Positions 42,162-51,218 of a DNA stretch of 64,000 nt are shown one piece after another. The position numbers were made by a program, and so were the translations under genes. Position 1 is the first letter of the stretch. Each line of letters begins with the position of its first letter. The stretch is taken from contig NZ_CP016450.1 in NCBI RefSeq assembly GCF_001713395.1, positions 1,922,001 to 1,986,000 on the forward strand, written 5' to 3'. Source of the DNA: Sinorhizobium sp. RAC02 (GTDB lineage Bacteria; Pseudomonadota; Alphaproteobacteria; Rhizobiales; Rhizobiaceae). The notes under the pieces are model-generated. The model was given only the letters and a program-made list of their open reading frames with translations. It was not told the origin of the DNA and did no database searches.

Positions 42162-43604
42162 CTATACGCGGATCGCCAGCCGCAGACCGCCCCAGTGCCG
42201 GCCATTGACGGTGATGGGCGCGGAAATGTCCTTCATCAGCACGAACTGCCCACCGCCCATGTCGCGACGATAGGTCTGGAGGAGGAATGGCTGTGTGTTG
42301 CGGCCGGCGGCCAGCCCCACCCGATCGTTGAAGATGCGGCGGTTGCGGCAGTTCGCGGTGTTCCAGGCAGGATCGCCCGGCCGCTGCGGCTCGGCGAATT
42401 TGCGGTTGTGCGTCGGCAGGTAGCCATTTTCGTCCACCGCCACACAGAAGGCGATGCGCTGGTCGCGCGTGGCGGCCGGCTCCTGGATTGCCGGAAGAAC
42501 GCGATCGGTAAAGTCGGTGAACCGCGTCATCATCTGCACCGGATCGCTGCCCGGGATGGGCCGGTATTGCCGGTCGAACAGCGCCTCCATGCCGATCTCG
42601 CCGCTCAGCACTGCACCGGCAAAACGTGCCGAAACCTCGTCAGCCAACGCCTGAACCAGGCGAATATAGGGACTGTCCGGCGTCGCGATCCCCGCGCTCG
42701 CCGTCGCCTGGATGATGCGCTCGGAGATGGTCACCACTTCGCCGACCTTGCCGGAGGCCTTCTGCAGCACCTCGTTGGAGCGGATGATCTCCGTCGAGGC
42801 TGCACCGATCGACCGGGCGAACTCGCTGCATTCCTTGTCGACGGCGCCTGTCGTGGCCGCGAGCGAGGACGCACTGTCGAGGATCTTCGACATGACCGCC
42901 TCCACGCCGGCAAACGAGCCCTGCACCTGCGACGCCGTCACCTTCACGCCCTCTGCCGATACGCGTGCGCCCTCGCCCGCCGCTTCCAGCCGGTCGATGC
43001 GCGCGCGCAGTTCCTGCAACGTCTTCTGGATCGAGGCCGTCGTGCTGGAGGTTTCCAGCGACAGTGTGCGCACCTCCGCGGCGACCACCGCAAACCCCTT
43101 GCCCGCCTCGCCTGCACGCGCCGCCTCGATGGCGGCATTGAGCGCCAGAAGGTTGGTCTGCCGCGCGATAGTGCCGATCGCATCGGCCAGCCGGCCGACA
43201 TCCGCCAGCGCCCGGGAGAAGGCGGAAATCTCCGTGCCGATCTCGTTGGAGGCCGTCACCATATGGTCGATGGCCGCAATGGAACCGTCGAGCTGCACCG
43301 CCTGTTCGCCCAGCACCTTGCGGGCACTCGCGGCCAGCTGGTCGGTTTCTCCAAGCGTGCGGGCAATGTCGCCATTGGTGCTGGCAATCGCCGTCGCCGA
43401 CTGGGTCAGTCGGGTGAAGAGGCCGGCATGTTCGCGCGATTGCGCGGCCGTATCCTGAATGGAACCCGCAATATCGACCAGATGCAGGCCAAGATCCGAA
43501 GCCTCGGCGGCCAGCCCGCCCACGACCCGGCGCAGCGCCCCGGCATCGGCCGGTGCGTCATCTTCAAAAGTATCCGCAGTCTCACGCAAGGCAGCGTTGG
43601 ACAT
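42162..43604 (-). CDS. Soluble methyl-accepting chemotaxis-type protein
   Basis: This 480-aa chemoreceptor has no membrane segment. It contains the signalling hairpin [20 protein letters not shown] and [17 protein letters not shown] near residue 150. The C-terminal sensor-like domain ([56 protein letters not shown]) recurs in cytoplasmic MCPs. It lacks an obvious CheR-binding pentapeptide at the C-terminus. A CtrA-like site lies 44 bases upstream. Confidence 0.85.
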
Positions 43605-46961: not shown

Positions 46962-47087
46962 GTGGTGAAGGATTCCGGTTCAAATTCCCGGCGCCCTCGC
47001 CTATATGAAGACCGTAATCCCCTAGGATGCCGCAACTCCGCTGAACCCGCTTCGCACCTTCACCGGAATTGCTCAGGACGGAATGCC

Positions 47088-47507
47088 ATGGCCACGCTTC
47101 AGCAGATCATTGACGACTTCGCCTATCTCGAAGAATGGGAAGACCGTTACCGCTATGTCATCGAACTCGGCAAGGCGCTGCCGGACCTGCCGGAAGACAA
47201 GCGCATAGCGGCCAACAAGGTGCAGGGCTGCGCCAGCCAGGTCTGGCTCGTCAGCCACATTGAGGGCGGCGCCGATCCGGTGATGACCTTCGACGGCGAT
47301 TCGGATGCCCATATCGTGCGCGGCCTCGTCGCCATCGTGCTCGCCATCTATTCGGGCAAACACGCCTCCGAGATCGCCGCGCTCGATGCCATCGACACGT
47401 TCAACGAAATCGGCCTCGTCGAACACCTCTCCTCCCAGCGCGCCAACGGCCTGCGCTCGATGGTCAAGCGCATCCGCGAAGAGGCGGCCATCCGCGTGGC
47501 GGCCTGA
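47088..47507 (+). CDS. sufE: SufE-family cysteine desulfuration protein
   Basis: This 139-aa protein has the sulfur-accepting Cys in ANKVQGCASQVWLVSH, with FAYLEEWEDRYRYVIELGKA at the N-terminus. SufE accepts sulfur from the cysteine desulfurase SufS and stimulates it for Fe-S assembly. The start ATG 47088 is preceded by GGACGGA. The other suf genes are not nearby. The stop lies 7 bases from the convergent channel gene. Confidence 0.93.
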   Translation: MATLQQIIDDFAYLEEWEDRYRYVIELGKALPDLPEDKRIAANKVQGCASQVWLVSHIEGGADPVMTFDGDSDAHIVRGLVAIVLAIYSGKHASEIAALDAIDTFNEIGLVEHLSSQRANGLRSMVKRIREEAAIRVAA

Positions 47508-47513
47508 TCGACA

Positions 47514-48602
47514 TCAGACGTAAGCGGCCAGCATGAAGGCGGTTGCCAGGACCAGGATCAGCGTCGGGATCGTCCACATCAGCGTCACATAGGCCTGCTC
47601 CTGCACATAGGGACCGAACAGGCGCGCGATGACATTGAAGCGTGAGAACAGGATGTTGACGAACAGCGCCGAGGCGAGCCCGATATAGTTGAGGGCAAAC
47701 AGCCGGTTCACCGTGTTGTCGCCGACCGACAGGACGGTGTAGCTGCTATAGACCGTGAAGTTCAGCGCGATCACCGCAAAGAGGCCGCCGATGATGATGT
47801 TGACCATCTCGTAGGTATCCACCTGGAAGACGCCGTCTTCCATGCTGTTCAGCCAGATCGCCAGCAGCGGGATGAGCAGCGAAGCCAGCAGCGGAATGAA
47901 GATCGAGGCGACCACGAGCCCCGGCTGACGCTTGATATCCAGCGCGGCTACGATGCGCGCATGGCTTCCGTTGTACCAGCCCGGCAGCGGCGCGCTCTTC
48001 AGGTCGATGAGGCCGATGCTCCAGCCGGCAAGCTCGGCATTGGCGGAGGGGCGGCTGAAGTCGATATCCGACTGGTCGAAGCGCAATTGCATCTCGGCGG
48101 TCGTCAGCGTGTCGGCGGCAATCTCGATGGTCAGTTTCTGGCGGTCGAAGGGAAAGCGCTGCACATCGACGCCGACGGTGAAATCGGCCGTCACGCGGTG
48201 CAGCAGCTCGGCGCGGCCGGAGGGATAAATCCGGAGCCCATATTCCGAGCGGAGCGCCTCACCCGTCTGGTTGGCGATGCGGACCGGCGGGATCCAGATG
48301 TCCTTCATGCGGGCTTCGGCCGCAGAACCCCGCAGCGTCTCCGGCGGGGCACCTCCGGCGTCAGCGGGCGCGGCAAGACGCGAATCGTTCCAGCGCAGGC
48401 GCAGGTCCACGGTTGCGCGATACGTTCCGGTGTTCTCGTCGAAACTCTCGATCGACAGAACCGAGGCGCCGGCCTGCACGGTGATCGGCAGCCCCTTGTC
48501 GCGCGGCAGCGGCGGGGCGGCCAAACCTGCCGTCACAAAGGCGAAGAGTGCAAGTAGCGAGGCAAGGCAGACGAGGAAGGGACGAAGCGGGACCATCGTC
48601 AT
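47514..48602 (-). CDS. Prokaryotic pentameric ligand-gated ion channel (GLIC-like, Pro-loop)
   Basis: This 362-aa protein matches the pLGIC plan. A signal peptide (1-29) leads to a beta-sandwich with WNDSRLA (71-77, loop D-like W-x-D-x-R-L), DIWIPPVRIANQT (101-113, loop A) and the Pro-loop VDVQRFPFDRQKL (145-157), where the two eukaryotic Cys are Val and Leu, as expected of bacterial members. Four membrane segments follow (about 227-251, 264-290, 297-321, 337-361). TM2 has GGLFAVIALNFTVYSSYTV, close in layout to GLIC's pore helix. It overlaps the upstream Cache gene by ATGA, so the two are coupled. The ligand and ion are unknown. Residues for GLIC comparison are from memory. Confidence 0.88.
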   Translation of the reverse strand: MTMVPLRPFLVCLASLLALFAFVTAGLAAPPLPRDKGLPITVQAGASVLSIESFDENTGTYRATVDLRLRWNDSRLAAPADAGGAPPETLRGSAAEARMKDIWIPPVRIANQTGEALRSEYGLRIYPSGRAELLHRVTADFTVGVDVQRFPFDRQKLTIEIAADTLTTAEMQLRFDQSDIDFSRPSANAELAGWSIGLIDLKSAPLPGWYNGSHARIVAALDIKRQPGLVVASIFIPLLASLLIPLLAIWLNSMEDGVFQVDTYEMVNIIIGGLFAVIALNFTVYSSYTVLSVGDNTVNRLFALNYIGLASALFVNILFSRFNVIARLFGPYVQEQAYVTLMWTIPTLILVLATAFMLAAYV

Positions 48603-49732
48603 GCCTTTTCCGGCTCGGTCCGGCGACTGCGGATACGGTCGTACAAGGTGACCAGCGGCTGCATCTCCGCCGGAAACTTCTCCGTTCCCGTAATCGGCGT
48701 CAGCGGTGTGCCCGCGCCCACGGCCTCGAAGCGCTCGCCGAGCACGGCGAGCGGCCGCAGGAGAAACCCACGCAGCACGACAAGGATGAAGCCGGCGAGA
48801 AGAATGATGGCGATAAGGGTCACCACGCCCTGCCAGATCAAGGAACGGCTGACGGCGGCGCGCGAGGCGCTGAAATCCTGGCTGGCGGCGATGACGCCGA
48901 GCGGCGTACCGGAAGCGCTGTTGATCGGCAGCAGCACGACGCCGCGGGCAAGGCCCTGCGCCGCGCGCACATAGCGCAACGGCTCGTTGACCACCGCCAG
49001 ATCCTCCGGCCGGGCCAGTTCCGTCATCAATTGCGCATTCGTCGCCTCGAACCGAATATATTTGCCGACGCGGTTCTGGTCGCCCAGGCGTTCGGGATCG
49101 ACACCCGCCGCAAACTCCTTCAGCAATGCCTCGTCGATGTAAAGCGCAAGATCGATGCCATAGGCCGTCTTCAGCGCGGCGAGCAGCGGCCCGTAATCGA
49201 TGCCGATCTCGAAGGTGCCGATATGTTTGCCAGCGGGATCCAGCACGGGCGCGACGCCGAAAATGGCGGGGCCGTTGCGGGCGACCGCAGCACCCTTCAT
49301 CGGAACCTGCTCGCGGTTGGCGGCGACCACCAACGGGCGGAAGCGGGTCAGGTCGTCGCCAAACGCGGCCGGGTCGTGCAGCCGCAGGAACGACACGAGC
49401 GACGCCAGATGGAACTGCGCCTGGTCGACGCCGTGCCGCGCCTTCTGCCCGGCAAACATCTTTGAAAGTTCGGCGTTCAGCCCGGTCCGGTCGCCCGCCG
49501 CAAAGAGTTTTCGCACGACCGGCAGGTCGGAAATCAGCTCAGCCCGCGCCAGCGCCTTGTTTTCGGCGTCGCGGATCGCGGTCTCGACGATGGCCTGCAT
49601 GGTACGGAACTGATCGGCCTCGACCGCATCGGTCATCCCGGCAAACAACCGGCTGGTGACCAATGCCGCCCCGGCGACGATAACGACGACCGCAAGAATG
49701 AGGGCGACGGGAGCACTGCGCCGAAAGGTCAT
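48599..49732 (-). CDS. Cache-HAMP membrane sensor without output domain
   Basis: This 377-aa protein has two membrane segments (VALILAVVVIVAGAALVTS near the N-terminus and VVTLIAIILLAGFILVVLR near residue 310), a periplasmic double-Cache-like domain (FGVAPVLDPAGKHIGTFEIG), a short HAMP-like helix pair (LRPLAVLGERFEAVGAGTPL), and then ends at ~45 residues. There is no kinase, MCP hairpin or GGDEF. The ATG 49732 lies 36 bases from a perfect CtrA box; the longer start at 49777 would place the box inside the gene. It overlaps the channel gene by 4 bases. Confidence 0.82.
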   Translation of the reverse strand: MTFRRSAPVALILAVVVIVAGAALVTSRLFAGMTDAVEADQFRTMQAIVETAIRDAENKALARAELISDLPVVRKLFAAGDRTGLNAELSKMFAGQKARHGVDQAQFHLASLVSFLRLHDPAAFGDDLTRFRPLVVAANREQVPMKGAAVARNGPAIFGVAPVLDPAGKHIGTFEIGIDYGPLLAALKTAYGIDLALYIDEALLKEFAAGVDPERLGDQNRVGKYIRFEATNAQLMTELARPEDLAVVNEPLRYVRAAQGLARGVVLLPINSASGTPLGVIAASQDFSASRAAVSRSLIWQGVVTLIAIILLAGFILVVLRGFLLRPLAVLGERFEAVGAGTPLTPITGTEKFPAEMQPLVTLYDRIRSRRTEPEKA

Positions 49733-49767: not shown

Positions 49768-49783
49768 TTAACCGCAAGTTAAC
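49768..49783 (-). promoter_or_regulatory. CtrA box upstream of Cache/channel operon
   Basis: TTAACCGCAAGTTAAC matches TTAA-N7-TTAAC exactly on one strand, and the reverse strand reads GTTAACTTGCGGTTAA, also a match. It ends 36 bases upstream of the Cache start codon, a normal CtrA-activated promoter distance. Confidence 0.75.
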
Positions 49784-49954: not shown

Positions 49955-50755
49955 TCAGCGTGAAAGGTCCGGCCGATACCCTTCCGCTCCCCAGACGTGG
50001 CGGTGCCGCGCGGTCTTCGCCGGCGGCGCGTAGTGGCGGGCCAGGGCCAGCAGTGCGGCGCGCAGCATGAGCTTTGCCGAACGAGCGGGCCATTGACGCT
50101 CGCGCTCCACCGTCTCCAGCCCCTTCATGAAGCAGCAGACATCGAGCGCGACACCGGAAAGCTCCGGCCCGATCGCCTCGATGGCGCGGGCGACACGCAA
50201 CCGCGCGGCAAGCGCCGTATCGGTCAGGTCGCGCCCCACGCCCGCCTCGCCCTTCTGGCGGCTGGCGATACGCGGCTCCCACGACATGGTCATTTTCGGC
50301 TGCAGGCCGCCACGCGTGAAGTCCGCATGCAGCCGCTCGCCGGCAGCGAAGGCGCCCTCCGGCAGATAGGCCTCGCCCGATTTCTCCTTCAACCGCGCAA
50401 GGCTCGCCAACGGCGATTCCAGCCGGTTGGCGAAGGCCCTTTCCTGAACACCGTCCCGCAGCACGGTCACCGCGGCCATATCACGATGCTGGCCGGCAAA
50501 AGGGGTTTGCGCATCACAAAGCCGTCGCTTCAGATGGGCGCGCGCCTCCGGCAACGGGCTCAGCCTCCCCCCGTCACGTCGCAGAAGACCGCGGCTGAGC
50601 GCCTCCGCCAACACGGCCGGCGCCAGCGGCTGCCCGCGGCCATCGGCTGCGACCAGCGCATCGTCCTCGACAATCCTCACCTCGCCTGCGGCGAGCACAA
50701 AGCGCAGAAGCCTGGCAAGGGCATCGGCATTCCCCTTCCCGTCCGCCTCACTCAT
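49955..50755 (-). CDS. DUF6456-domain protein
   Basis: This 266-aa protein starts MSEADGKGNADALARLLRFV and holds EARAHLKRRLCDAQTPFAGQ, RNESPLASLARLKEKSGEAY (approximate) and ERLHADFTRGGLQPKMTMSW. The C-terminus has LSGVALDVCCFMKGLETVER. This matches DUF6456. It overlaps the HTH gene by 8 bases, so both are expressed together. Its role is unknown; DNA-related from context. Confidence 0.78.
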   Translation of the reverse strand: MSEADGKGNADALARLLRFVLAAGEVRIVEDDALVAADGRGQPLAPAVLAEALSRGLLRRDGGRLSPLPEARAHLKRRLCDAQTPFAGQHRDMAAVTVLRDGVQERAFANRLESPLASLARLKEKSGEAYLPEGAFAAGERLHADFTRGGLQPKMTMSWEPRIASRQKGEAGVGRDLTDTALAARLRVARAIEAIGPELSGVALDVCCFMKGLETVERERQWPARSAKLMLRAALLALARHYAPPAKTARHRHVWGAEGYRPDLSR

Positions 50756-51218
50756 GGCTGCCGATCCCCGCCGGACCGAAGACCGACTGCACGACCCGCT
50801 CGATTGCCGAAACGAAGGCATCGAACGCCACATCGTCGCGCCGGTCCTCCACCCGGTTGCAAGCATGGCCGACCGTCGTACGGTCGCGGCCGAAGGCGAT
50901 GCCAATATCCGACTGCGACAGGCGCAGCACGACATGGCAGACATACATGGCGATCTGCCGGACATGGCAGGTGGACCGGCGGCCGTCACGGCGCCAGAGC
51001 GGTCGTTCGCTTGCCATCGCCGTCATTTCCAGCACAAGCTGGCGCACGATCCGGCAGGCGACCGCCGGAACCACGATCGGCGCCGCCTGACCGCTCATCC
51101 GGCGCCGCACGCGCGGCCCGTCCTCCTCCGGCTCCAGGCCCTTGGTTTCCGGCGCCAGGGCGACGGGAGGCGCCGATTCCGAGGACGACCGCCGATGGGG
51201 AACGATGAACTGGTGCAT
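50748..51218 (-). CDS. DnaA domain IV-like helix-turn-helix protein
   Basis: This 156-aa protein has an N-terminal Pro/Arg/Glu linker and a C-terminal HTH reading RQIAMYVCHVVLRLSQSDIG and IAFGRDRTTVGHACNRVEDR, closely like the DnaA domain IV box-binding motif (R-D-x-T-T-V-x-H). There is no AAA+ domain. It could bind DnaA boxes and modulate initiation; inference from the fold. It overlaps the DUF6456 gene by 8 bases. Confidence 0.83.
   Translation of the reverse strand: MHQFIVPHRRSSSESAPPVALAPETKGLEPEEDGPRVRRRMSGQAAPIVVPAVACRIVRQLVLEMTAMASERPLWRRDGRRSTCHVRQIAMYVCHVVLRLSQSDIGIAFGRDRTTVGHACNRVEDRRDDVAFDAFVSAIERVVQSVFGPAGIGSHE

Follow-up and report, generated by a model that had tools for sequence, protein, structure and literature searches.

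To our knowledge, the natural roles and ligands of most bacterial pentameric ligand-gated ion channels (pLGICs) are unknown. GLIC, the proton-gated channel of Gloeobacter violaceus, has an isoleucine at the 9' position of its pore helix (M2), and we know of no report of a dCache partner for it. The association of pLGICs with Cache sensors has been on record since 2004, when a stand-alone Cache gene was described in an operon with a pLGIC in Rhodopseudomonas, and the two products were suggested to cooperate, chemosensing being the role proposed (Tasneem et al. 2004, PMC549065). That report also describes fusions of MCP-N/Cache domains to pLGICs in Methanosarcina, Cytophaga, and Microbulbifer and fusions of PBP-I domains to pLGICs (PMC549065), and DeCLIC is a pLGIC with an extra module (PMC9897478). 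Such sensor modules, built into the chain of the channel itself, make it plausible that a cache sensor has a pLGIC as its output.

The window analyzed here, a 64,000-nucleotide stretch from Sinorhizobium sp. RAC02, lies on a 4.15-Mb contig of a genome that has its closest named relatives in Shinella, in keeping with the rhizobial chromosome named by a first-pass annotation that was made from the letters alone. That annotation had proposed a GLIC-like pLGIC in the window, and the proposal is borne out (Table 1). The open reading frame (47514 to 48602, reverse strand) is intact, begins with ATG, and has a single match within its own genome; its product matches Pfam Neur_chan_LBD (E = 1.3e-16; 61 bits, the cut-off being 26), as do 18 of 18 family members, and GLIC chains are the best of its PDB sequence matches, among the best 60 listed (E of ~1e-16 by phmmer and about 1e-34 with a family profile). 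An AlphaFold model built from a 35-row alignment has the pLGIC fold (mean pLDDT of 91.3, pTM of 0.82), with an N-terminal helix and strands at residues 40 to 225 followed by M1, M2, M3, and M4, that is, a beta-sandwich plus four transmembrane helices. The sequence elements noted in the first pass are likewise in place: a signal peptide (hydrophobic segment at residues 9 to 27), the loops W71-N-D-S-R-L76 and IWIPPVRIANQ (I102 to Q112), the Pro-loop F150-P-F-D153 without the Cys pair, and four membrane segments in pLGIC order, both in the TM computation and in the model.

TABLE 1 Features of the sensor-channel locus, in window positions
Feature	Position	Strand	Basis
SufE flanking gene, left cassette border in Shinella	47085..47507	+	Pfam
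pLGIC (Pro-loop receptor) subunit, 362 aa	47514..48602	-	Pfam Neur_chan_LBD, GLIC match, AlphaFold model
M4 helix, residues 331-361	47520..47612	-	AlphaFold model
M3 helix, residues 297-321	47640..47714	-	AlphaFold model
M2 pore helix, residues 263-287	47742..47816	-	AlphaFold model and alignment
M1-M2 segment, residues 252-262, including 7-residue insert (256-262)	47817..47849	-	Alignment and model
M1 helix, residues 227-251	47850..47924	-	AlphaFold model
Periplasmic ligand-binding beta-sandwich, residues 34-227	47922..48503	-	Pfam and AlphaFold model
Gly208-Trp209 between last two strands (presumed loop C position)	47976..47981	-	Alignment and model
Signal peptide, residues 1 to about 29	48516..48602	-	Hydrophobic segment 9-27; cleavage site judged by eye
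ATGA overlap, cache stop/pLGIC start	48599..48602	-	
Membrane sensor of 377 aa with dCache_3 and no recognized output domain	48599..49732	-	Pfam dCache_3
Short cytoplasmic tail of cache protein	48602..48772	-	No tail in some relatives
Cache protein TM2, residues 302-320	48773..48829	-	TM computation
dCache_3 periplasmic domain, residues 48-280	48893..49591	-	Pfam
Cache protein TM1, residues 7-25	49658..49714	-	TM computation
DUF6456 flanking gene, right border	49955..50989	-	Pfam

The membrane half of the channel is divergent by sequence, since the Neur_chan_memb profile matches none of the 18 family members and the NCBIfam models LIC and LGIC_1 reach E values of ~1e-18 yet fall far under their cut-offs. 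For this half, therefore, membership among the pLGICs is carried by the GLIC alignment, which extends through it (profile positions 38 to 342), and by the predicted fold. Of the checks suggested with the annotation, pLGIC profiles gave a match for the ligand-binding domain and none for the membrane domain, and structure prediction returned the beta-sandwich and four helices; neither of the contrary outcomes named (no profile match at all, another fold) arose. Sequence comparison and model together support the product as a pLGIC with GLIC as its best solved match, and it presumably assembles as a homopentamer. The two are alike in fold, in a Pro-loop without the Cys pair, and in having no intracellular domain. 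Close orthologs occur in three Shinella records (78 to 81%) and in Rhizobium herbae and two Rhizobiales isolates (75 to 78%), and NG86 dN/dS ratios, rough because dS is high, are 0.11 to 0.24 for the channel and 0.09 to 0.16 for its partner gene described below (five comparisons each).

In protein trees, the pLGICs that are paired with this partner fall into two subclades, with nine members in that of the window. Under prime numbering that we take to apply to M2, E265 is -1', N268 is 2', G272 is 6', F275 is 9', A279 is 13', and F282 is 16', and the alignment has Glu -1', Asn 2', Gly 6', and Phe 9' in all nine. Outside the subclade, 9' is Leu in 24 of 26 pLGICs and Phe in the other two (L060 and L089). 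The M1-M2 insert is complete in 9/9 members and in 0/26 other aligned pLGICs, of which L044, L045, and L048 have two residues at the site and L060 has one; in the model it forms a short beta hairpin that faces the cytoplasm (block pLDDT of 79). GLIC differs in having a shorter M1-M2 stretch and two prolines in the M2-M3 turn (alignment). The earlier remark that the window's channel lacks such a proline exit holds, with Thr or Ala at position 289 in eight of the nine members and Pro in the ninth (L043). We know of no solved pLGIC that combines a cytoplasmic M1-M2 hairpin ring with a Phe 9' gate, and the subclade provides a naturally occurring variant of the inner mouth of the pLGIC pore.

An acidic ring at -1'/-2' is the rule for cation selectivity in pLGICs, and E265 supplies one in 9/9 members of the subclade; in the sister subclade, -1' is acidic in 7/10 and the acid is missing in L044, L045, and L048. 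Cation-selective pLGICs are described as having an acidic-ring filter (PMC9897478). Given the acidic -1' ring, the channel is probably cation-selective, and the suggestion made in the first pass that its ion choice may be new is not favored, an acidic -1' ring with Asn 2' being the usual cation signature. The protein might instead have ceased to conduct and serve the cache sensor as a pentameric platform for binding in the periplasm, a reading that would accommodate the failure of Neur_chan_memb throughout the family, the unusual Phe 9', and the insert near the inner pore mouth. We regard it as very improbable, as residues 250 to 285 (insert and M2) show the highest conservation among the three channel parts compared (94 to 97% against six close orthologs, with 67 to 81% for the extracellular domain) and, together with the invariant -1'/2' cation filter of the nine members, suggest a working pore.

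The partner gene, directly upstream of the channel gene, encodes a protein with a Pfam dCache_3 match of E = 3e-25 (an alternative in-frame start, TTG at 49777, would give 392 aa). This gene, like the M1-M2 insert and Phe 9', had gone unremarked in the first pass, and the three weigh more than the side claims made there. PF14827 (dCache_3) is present in 18 of 18 paired cache proteins scanned, the 19th (L096) lying outside the scan; among these 18, no output domain was found by Pfam at E of 0.01, and MCPsignal was absent from every one. The dCache_3 domain sits between two transmembrane helices in the four proteins for which these were computed (the window, L046, L049, and L096), and the chain stops right after TM2 in L046, L049, L051, and L096. 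Where a tail follows, it is perhaps a worn HAMP domain, Pfam HAMP giving a weak, marginal match in 1 of 18, and in some members it might act on a cytoplasmic partner.

Linkage of the two genes was assessed in both directions. Among the 19 pairs collected (the window, L010 to L015, L042 to L052, and L096), the cache gene lies directly upstream of the channel gene in every clade pLGIC examined, with an overlap of exactly 4 bp in 15; the exceptions are L011 and L012 (1-nt gap), L049 (16-nt gap), and L010 (frameshifted), and for L043 and L048 we selected GTG as the start codon. No cache open reading frame (E of 0.01, flanks of about 2 to 3 kb) was detected at any of 18 more distant pLGIC loci (L053 to L061, L085 to L090, and L097 to L099), a count that leaves out weaker pLGIC matches such as L033 to L036, L067, L068, L131, and L133 to L138. 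Starting from the sensor, 11 cache matches of at least 384 bits in 10 of the 397 genomes of the order coincide with 11 clade pLGICs, and the next matches score at most 220 bits (42 lower matches, E up to 1e-40; four to five candidates per genome scored), a gap that is partly built in because the profile was derived from the paired proteins. Some pLGIC match occurs in 21 of the 397 genomes, so that bacterial pLGICs, called scarce in the first pass, are fairly so described, but only in a relative sense.

In Shinella, the pair lies between sufE and the DUF6456 gene in 4 of 21 genus genomes, that of the window among them. In 16 others, sufE is followed by DUF6456 without either gene, and the remaining genome (G012) has neither the pair nor DUF6456 at the site. 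Within this genus, the two genes come and go together. Neither sufE nor DUF6456 is near the pair in the Rhizobium-type loci L013 to L015, and no flanking gene family is common to more than 3 of 15 pairs (flanks are short, with less than 400 bases upstream in L043). The families that reach three are those of the close set L013 to L015 and an AraC-type regulator (L045, 4327 to 5352; L048, 1 to 429; L050, 5518 to 6582; all on the reverse strand; Pfam scan on L045 only), whose occurrence near three pairs may be chance.

Several loci have features of their own. In the window, a gene ~4 kb from the cassette (42162 to 43604, reverse strand) encodes a 480-aa MCP-signal protein in which Pfam recognizes nothing else at E of 0.001, and an open reading frame with a start similar to that of this protein lies ~4 kb from the pair in L011. 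The paired pLGIC of L042 (3673 to 5037, reverse strand) has a Pro/Ala-rich stretch of ~100 residues between the signal peptide and the ligand-binding domain. In L010 (3804 to 6023), cache and channel share one 739-aa frame in a draft assembly; we do not count it as a natural fusion because the single frame is due to one base near the 3' end of the cache gene by which L010 departs from its sisters, either an error or a recent frameshift. Carriage as mobile or phage cargo is not supported, since tblastn of the channel against plasmid and phage records gave no match at the limits used and a viral-contig scan with one conserved stretch as the pattern gave no relative; the one loose match in plasmid DNA proved to be a different cache protein, beside which no channel is annotated.

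Cache and channel also share their history. Their distance matrices correlate at r = 0.88 for 18 pairs, 0.81 for 12 distinct pairs, and 0.82 for nine pairs of the second subclade only (p = 1e-4 each, 9999 permutations), although correlated trees are also expected when linked genes descend together without contact. The main groups are the same in both trees, apart from small differences among closely related members, and each tree places L044, with some uncertainty, on a long branch of its own between the subclades. Two genomes hold two pairs each (L044 and L045 in G124, L012 and L052 in G016), and cache and channel placements match in these as well.

RIC-3 and NACHO are assembly, folding, or trafficking partners of animal receptors, and a cache protein of that kind, beside a channel that does its own ligand sensing at the classical site between subunits, would produce the same adjacency and co-inheritance. 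The channel retains a full ligand-binding domain, and a Trp209 near what we take to be loop C is specific to the clade (Gly-Trp at 208-209 in 19/19 paired pLGICs, Trp there in 0/16 others, the alignment being gapped at the site). We nonetheless consider this explanation unlikely: dCache_3 is a sensor family, the best conserved stretch of the paired caches is seen by eye in three chemoreceptors as well and would be needless for a chaperone, and the 18 distant pLGICs examined lack such a neighbor.

The relatives of the partner point to where it came from. At 10 of the 11 high-scoring loci, which were those examined, the cache match stops 1 to 12 residues before the stop codon, whereas 19 of the 20 lower matches examined (of 42) continue for 297 to 449 residues, the other being cut by a contig end. 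By Pfam, all 19 are dCache_3 proteins with MCPsignal, and 15 of these unpaired relatives have HAMP at E of 1e-5. In an earlier search, six of ten unpaired matches were scanned, of which five are chemoreceptors (L091, L092, L095, L093, and L084; HAMP in L092 falls just under the cut-off) and the sixth, L094, is a histidine kinase; L091 and L092 are the same proteins as L149 and L168. The best conserved stretch of the paired caches, FLRxHxPxxFGDDLS..R, is found by eye in the chemoreceptors L091, L092, and L095 too. Open-frame length was rejected as a sign of multidomain relatives, paired proteins also occurring in frames of 659 and 746 aa. A census of dCache_3 counted 883 proteins, including 327 kinases, 236 MCPs, and 248 cyclic-di-GMP enzymes (Upadhyay et al. 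2016, PMC4822843), and its Table 1 enters a dash for ion channels. On the best reading of these comparisons, the partner would be a chemoreceptor sensor stripped of its signaling module.

Such an ancestry could also mean that the cache protein works apart from the channel, as a sensing or decoy subunit with chemoreceptors or HAMP proteins, the channel being co-expressed for the same response; the weak HAMP score of 1 of 18 tails and the MCP-domain gene at 42162 to 43604 would fit. This strikes us as distinctly unlikely, because HAMP-to-HAMP coupling is impossible in L046, L049, L051, and L096, whose caches end after TM2, and because no other gene recurs in the flanks of more than three of the 15 pairs.

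We favor an arrangement with the cache protein as sensor and the channel as its output, as the sensor has been kept and the output lost, linkage holds in both directions, the trees match, and both genes are under purifying selection. A small periplasmic molecule would bind the dCache domain, whose change of shape would reach the channel by way of periplasmic or membrane contacts; the channel would open, and entering cations would alter membrane potential or ion balance. The channel would thus serve as the output of the dCache subunit in place of the lost chemoreceptor signaling module. Against it stand the missing acid at -1' in L044, L045, and L048, the tails that in some members might act on a cytoplasmic partner, and the AraC-type family near three pairs. 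We consider it reasonably likely that cache and channel work as a single functional unit and that the channel conducts; whether the cache protein itself gates the channel is nearly an even question, leaning slightly to the negative. A fuller picture, in which dCache_3 subunits ring the pLGIC pentamer and gate it and the window's subclade adds a ring of M1-M2 hairpins in the cytoplasm and a gate at Phe 9', is put forward tentatively, with the balance against it. A complex of the two proteins, its ligand, which way gating runs, the ions that pass, and the physiological role are here inferred rather than observed. A partner beside every clade member examined, of a sensor class met elsewhere in this analysis in chemoreceptors, provides a direct route to the search for a ligand and to a test of auxiliary subunits in bacterial pLGICs; if the arrangement is true, it is also a bacterial case of sensor and pore in separate proteins.

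In L014 (2 to 3604), the genes immediately upstream of the pair encode an ABC transporter of the glycine-betaine type (OpuAC, two permeases, and an ATPase), and L013 and L015 have most of these genes. Flank comparison placed no such transporter near other pairs, so betaine is a ligand lead only.

Among described systems, the locus resembles the Rhodopseudomonas operon in having a stand-alone Cache gene beside a bacterial pLGIC; that operon was reported from one genome and, in the available portion of that report, without a Cache subclass, tree comparison, or presence/absence test (PMC549065). Later treatment of the operon was not found in the literature searched, mostly at the abstract level. 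Fused sensor-pLGICs have their extra module in the same chain, whereas here it is a separate membrane protein; pLGICs of ~710 to 730 aa fused to a PBP domain (L128, L130, and L132) occur in the family of genome G485, which itself contains a dCache-paired pLGIC. The dCache_3-HAMP-MCPsignal chemoreceptors have the same sensor domain, but the partner described here is without the MCP module, and its HAMP is worn or gone. The alpha2-delta protein of animal voltage-gated Ca channels is a dCache protein that acts as an auxiliary channel subunit (PMC9901441), by analogy only, since it carries dCache_1, not dCache_3, and serves an unrelated pore family. As far as our searches show, what this locus adds to the known operon and fusions is the dCache_3 class of the partner, its putative origin as a truncated chemoreceptor, the two-way linkage, the agreement of the trees, the joint presence or absence of the two genes, and an M1-M2 insert together with Phe 9'.
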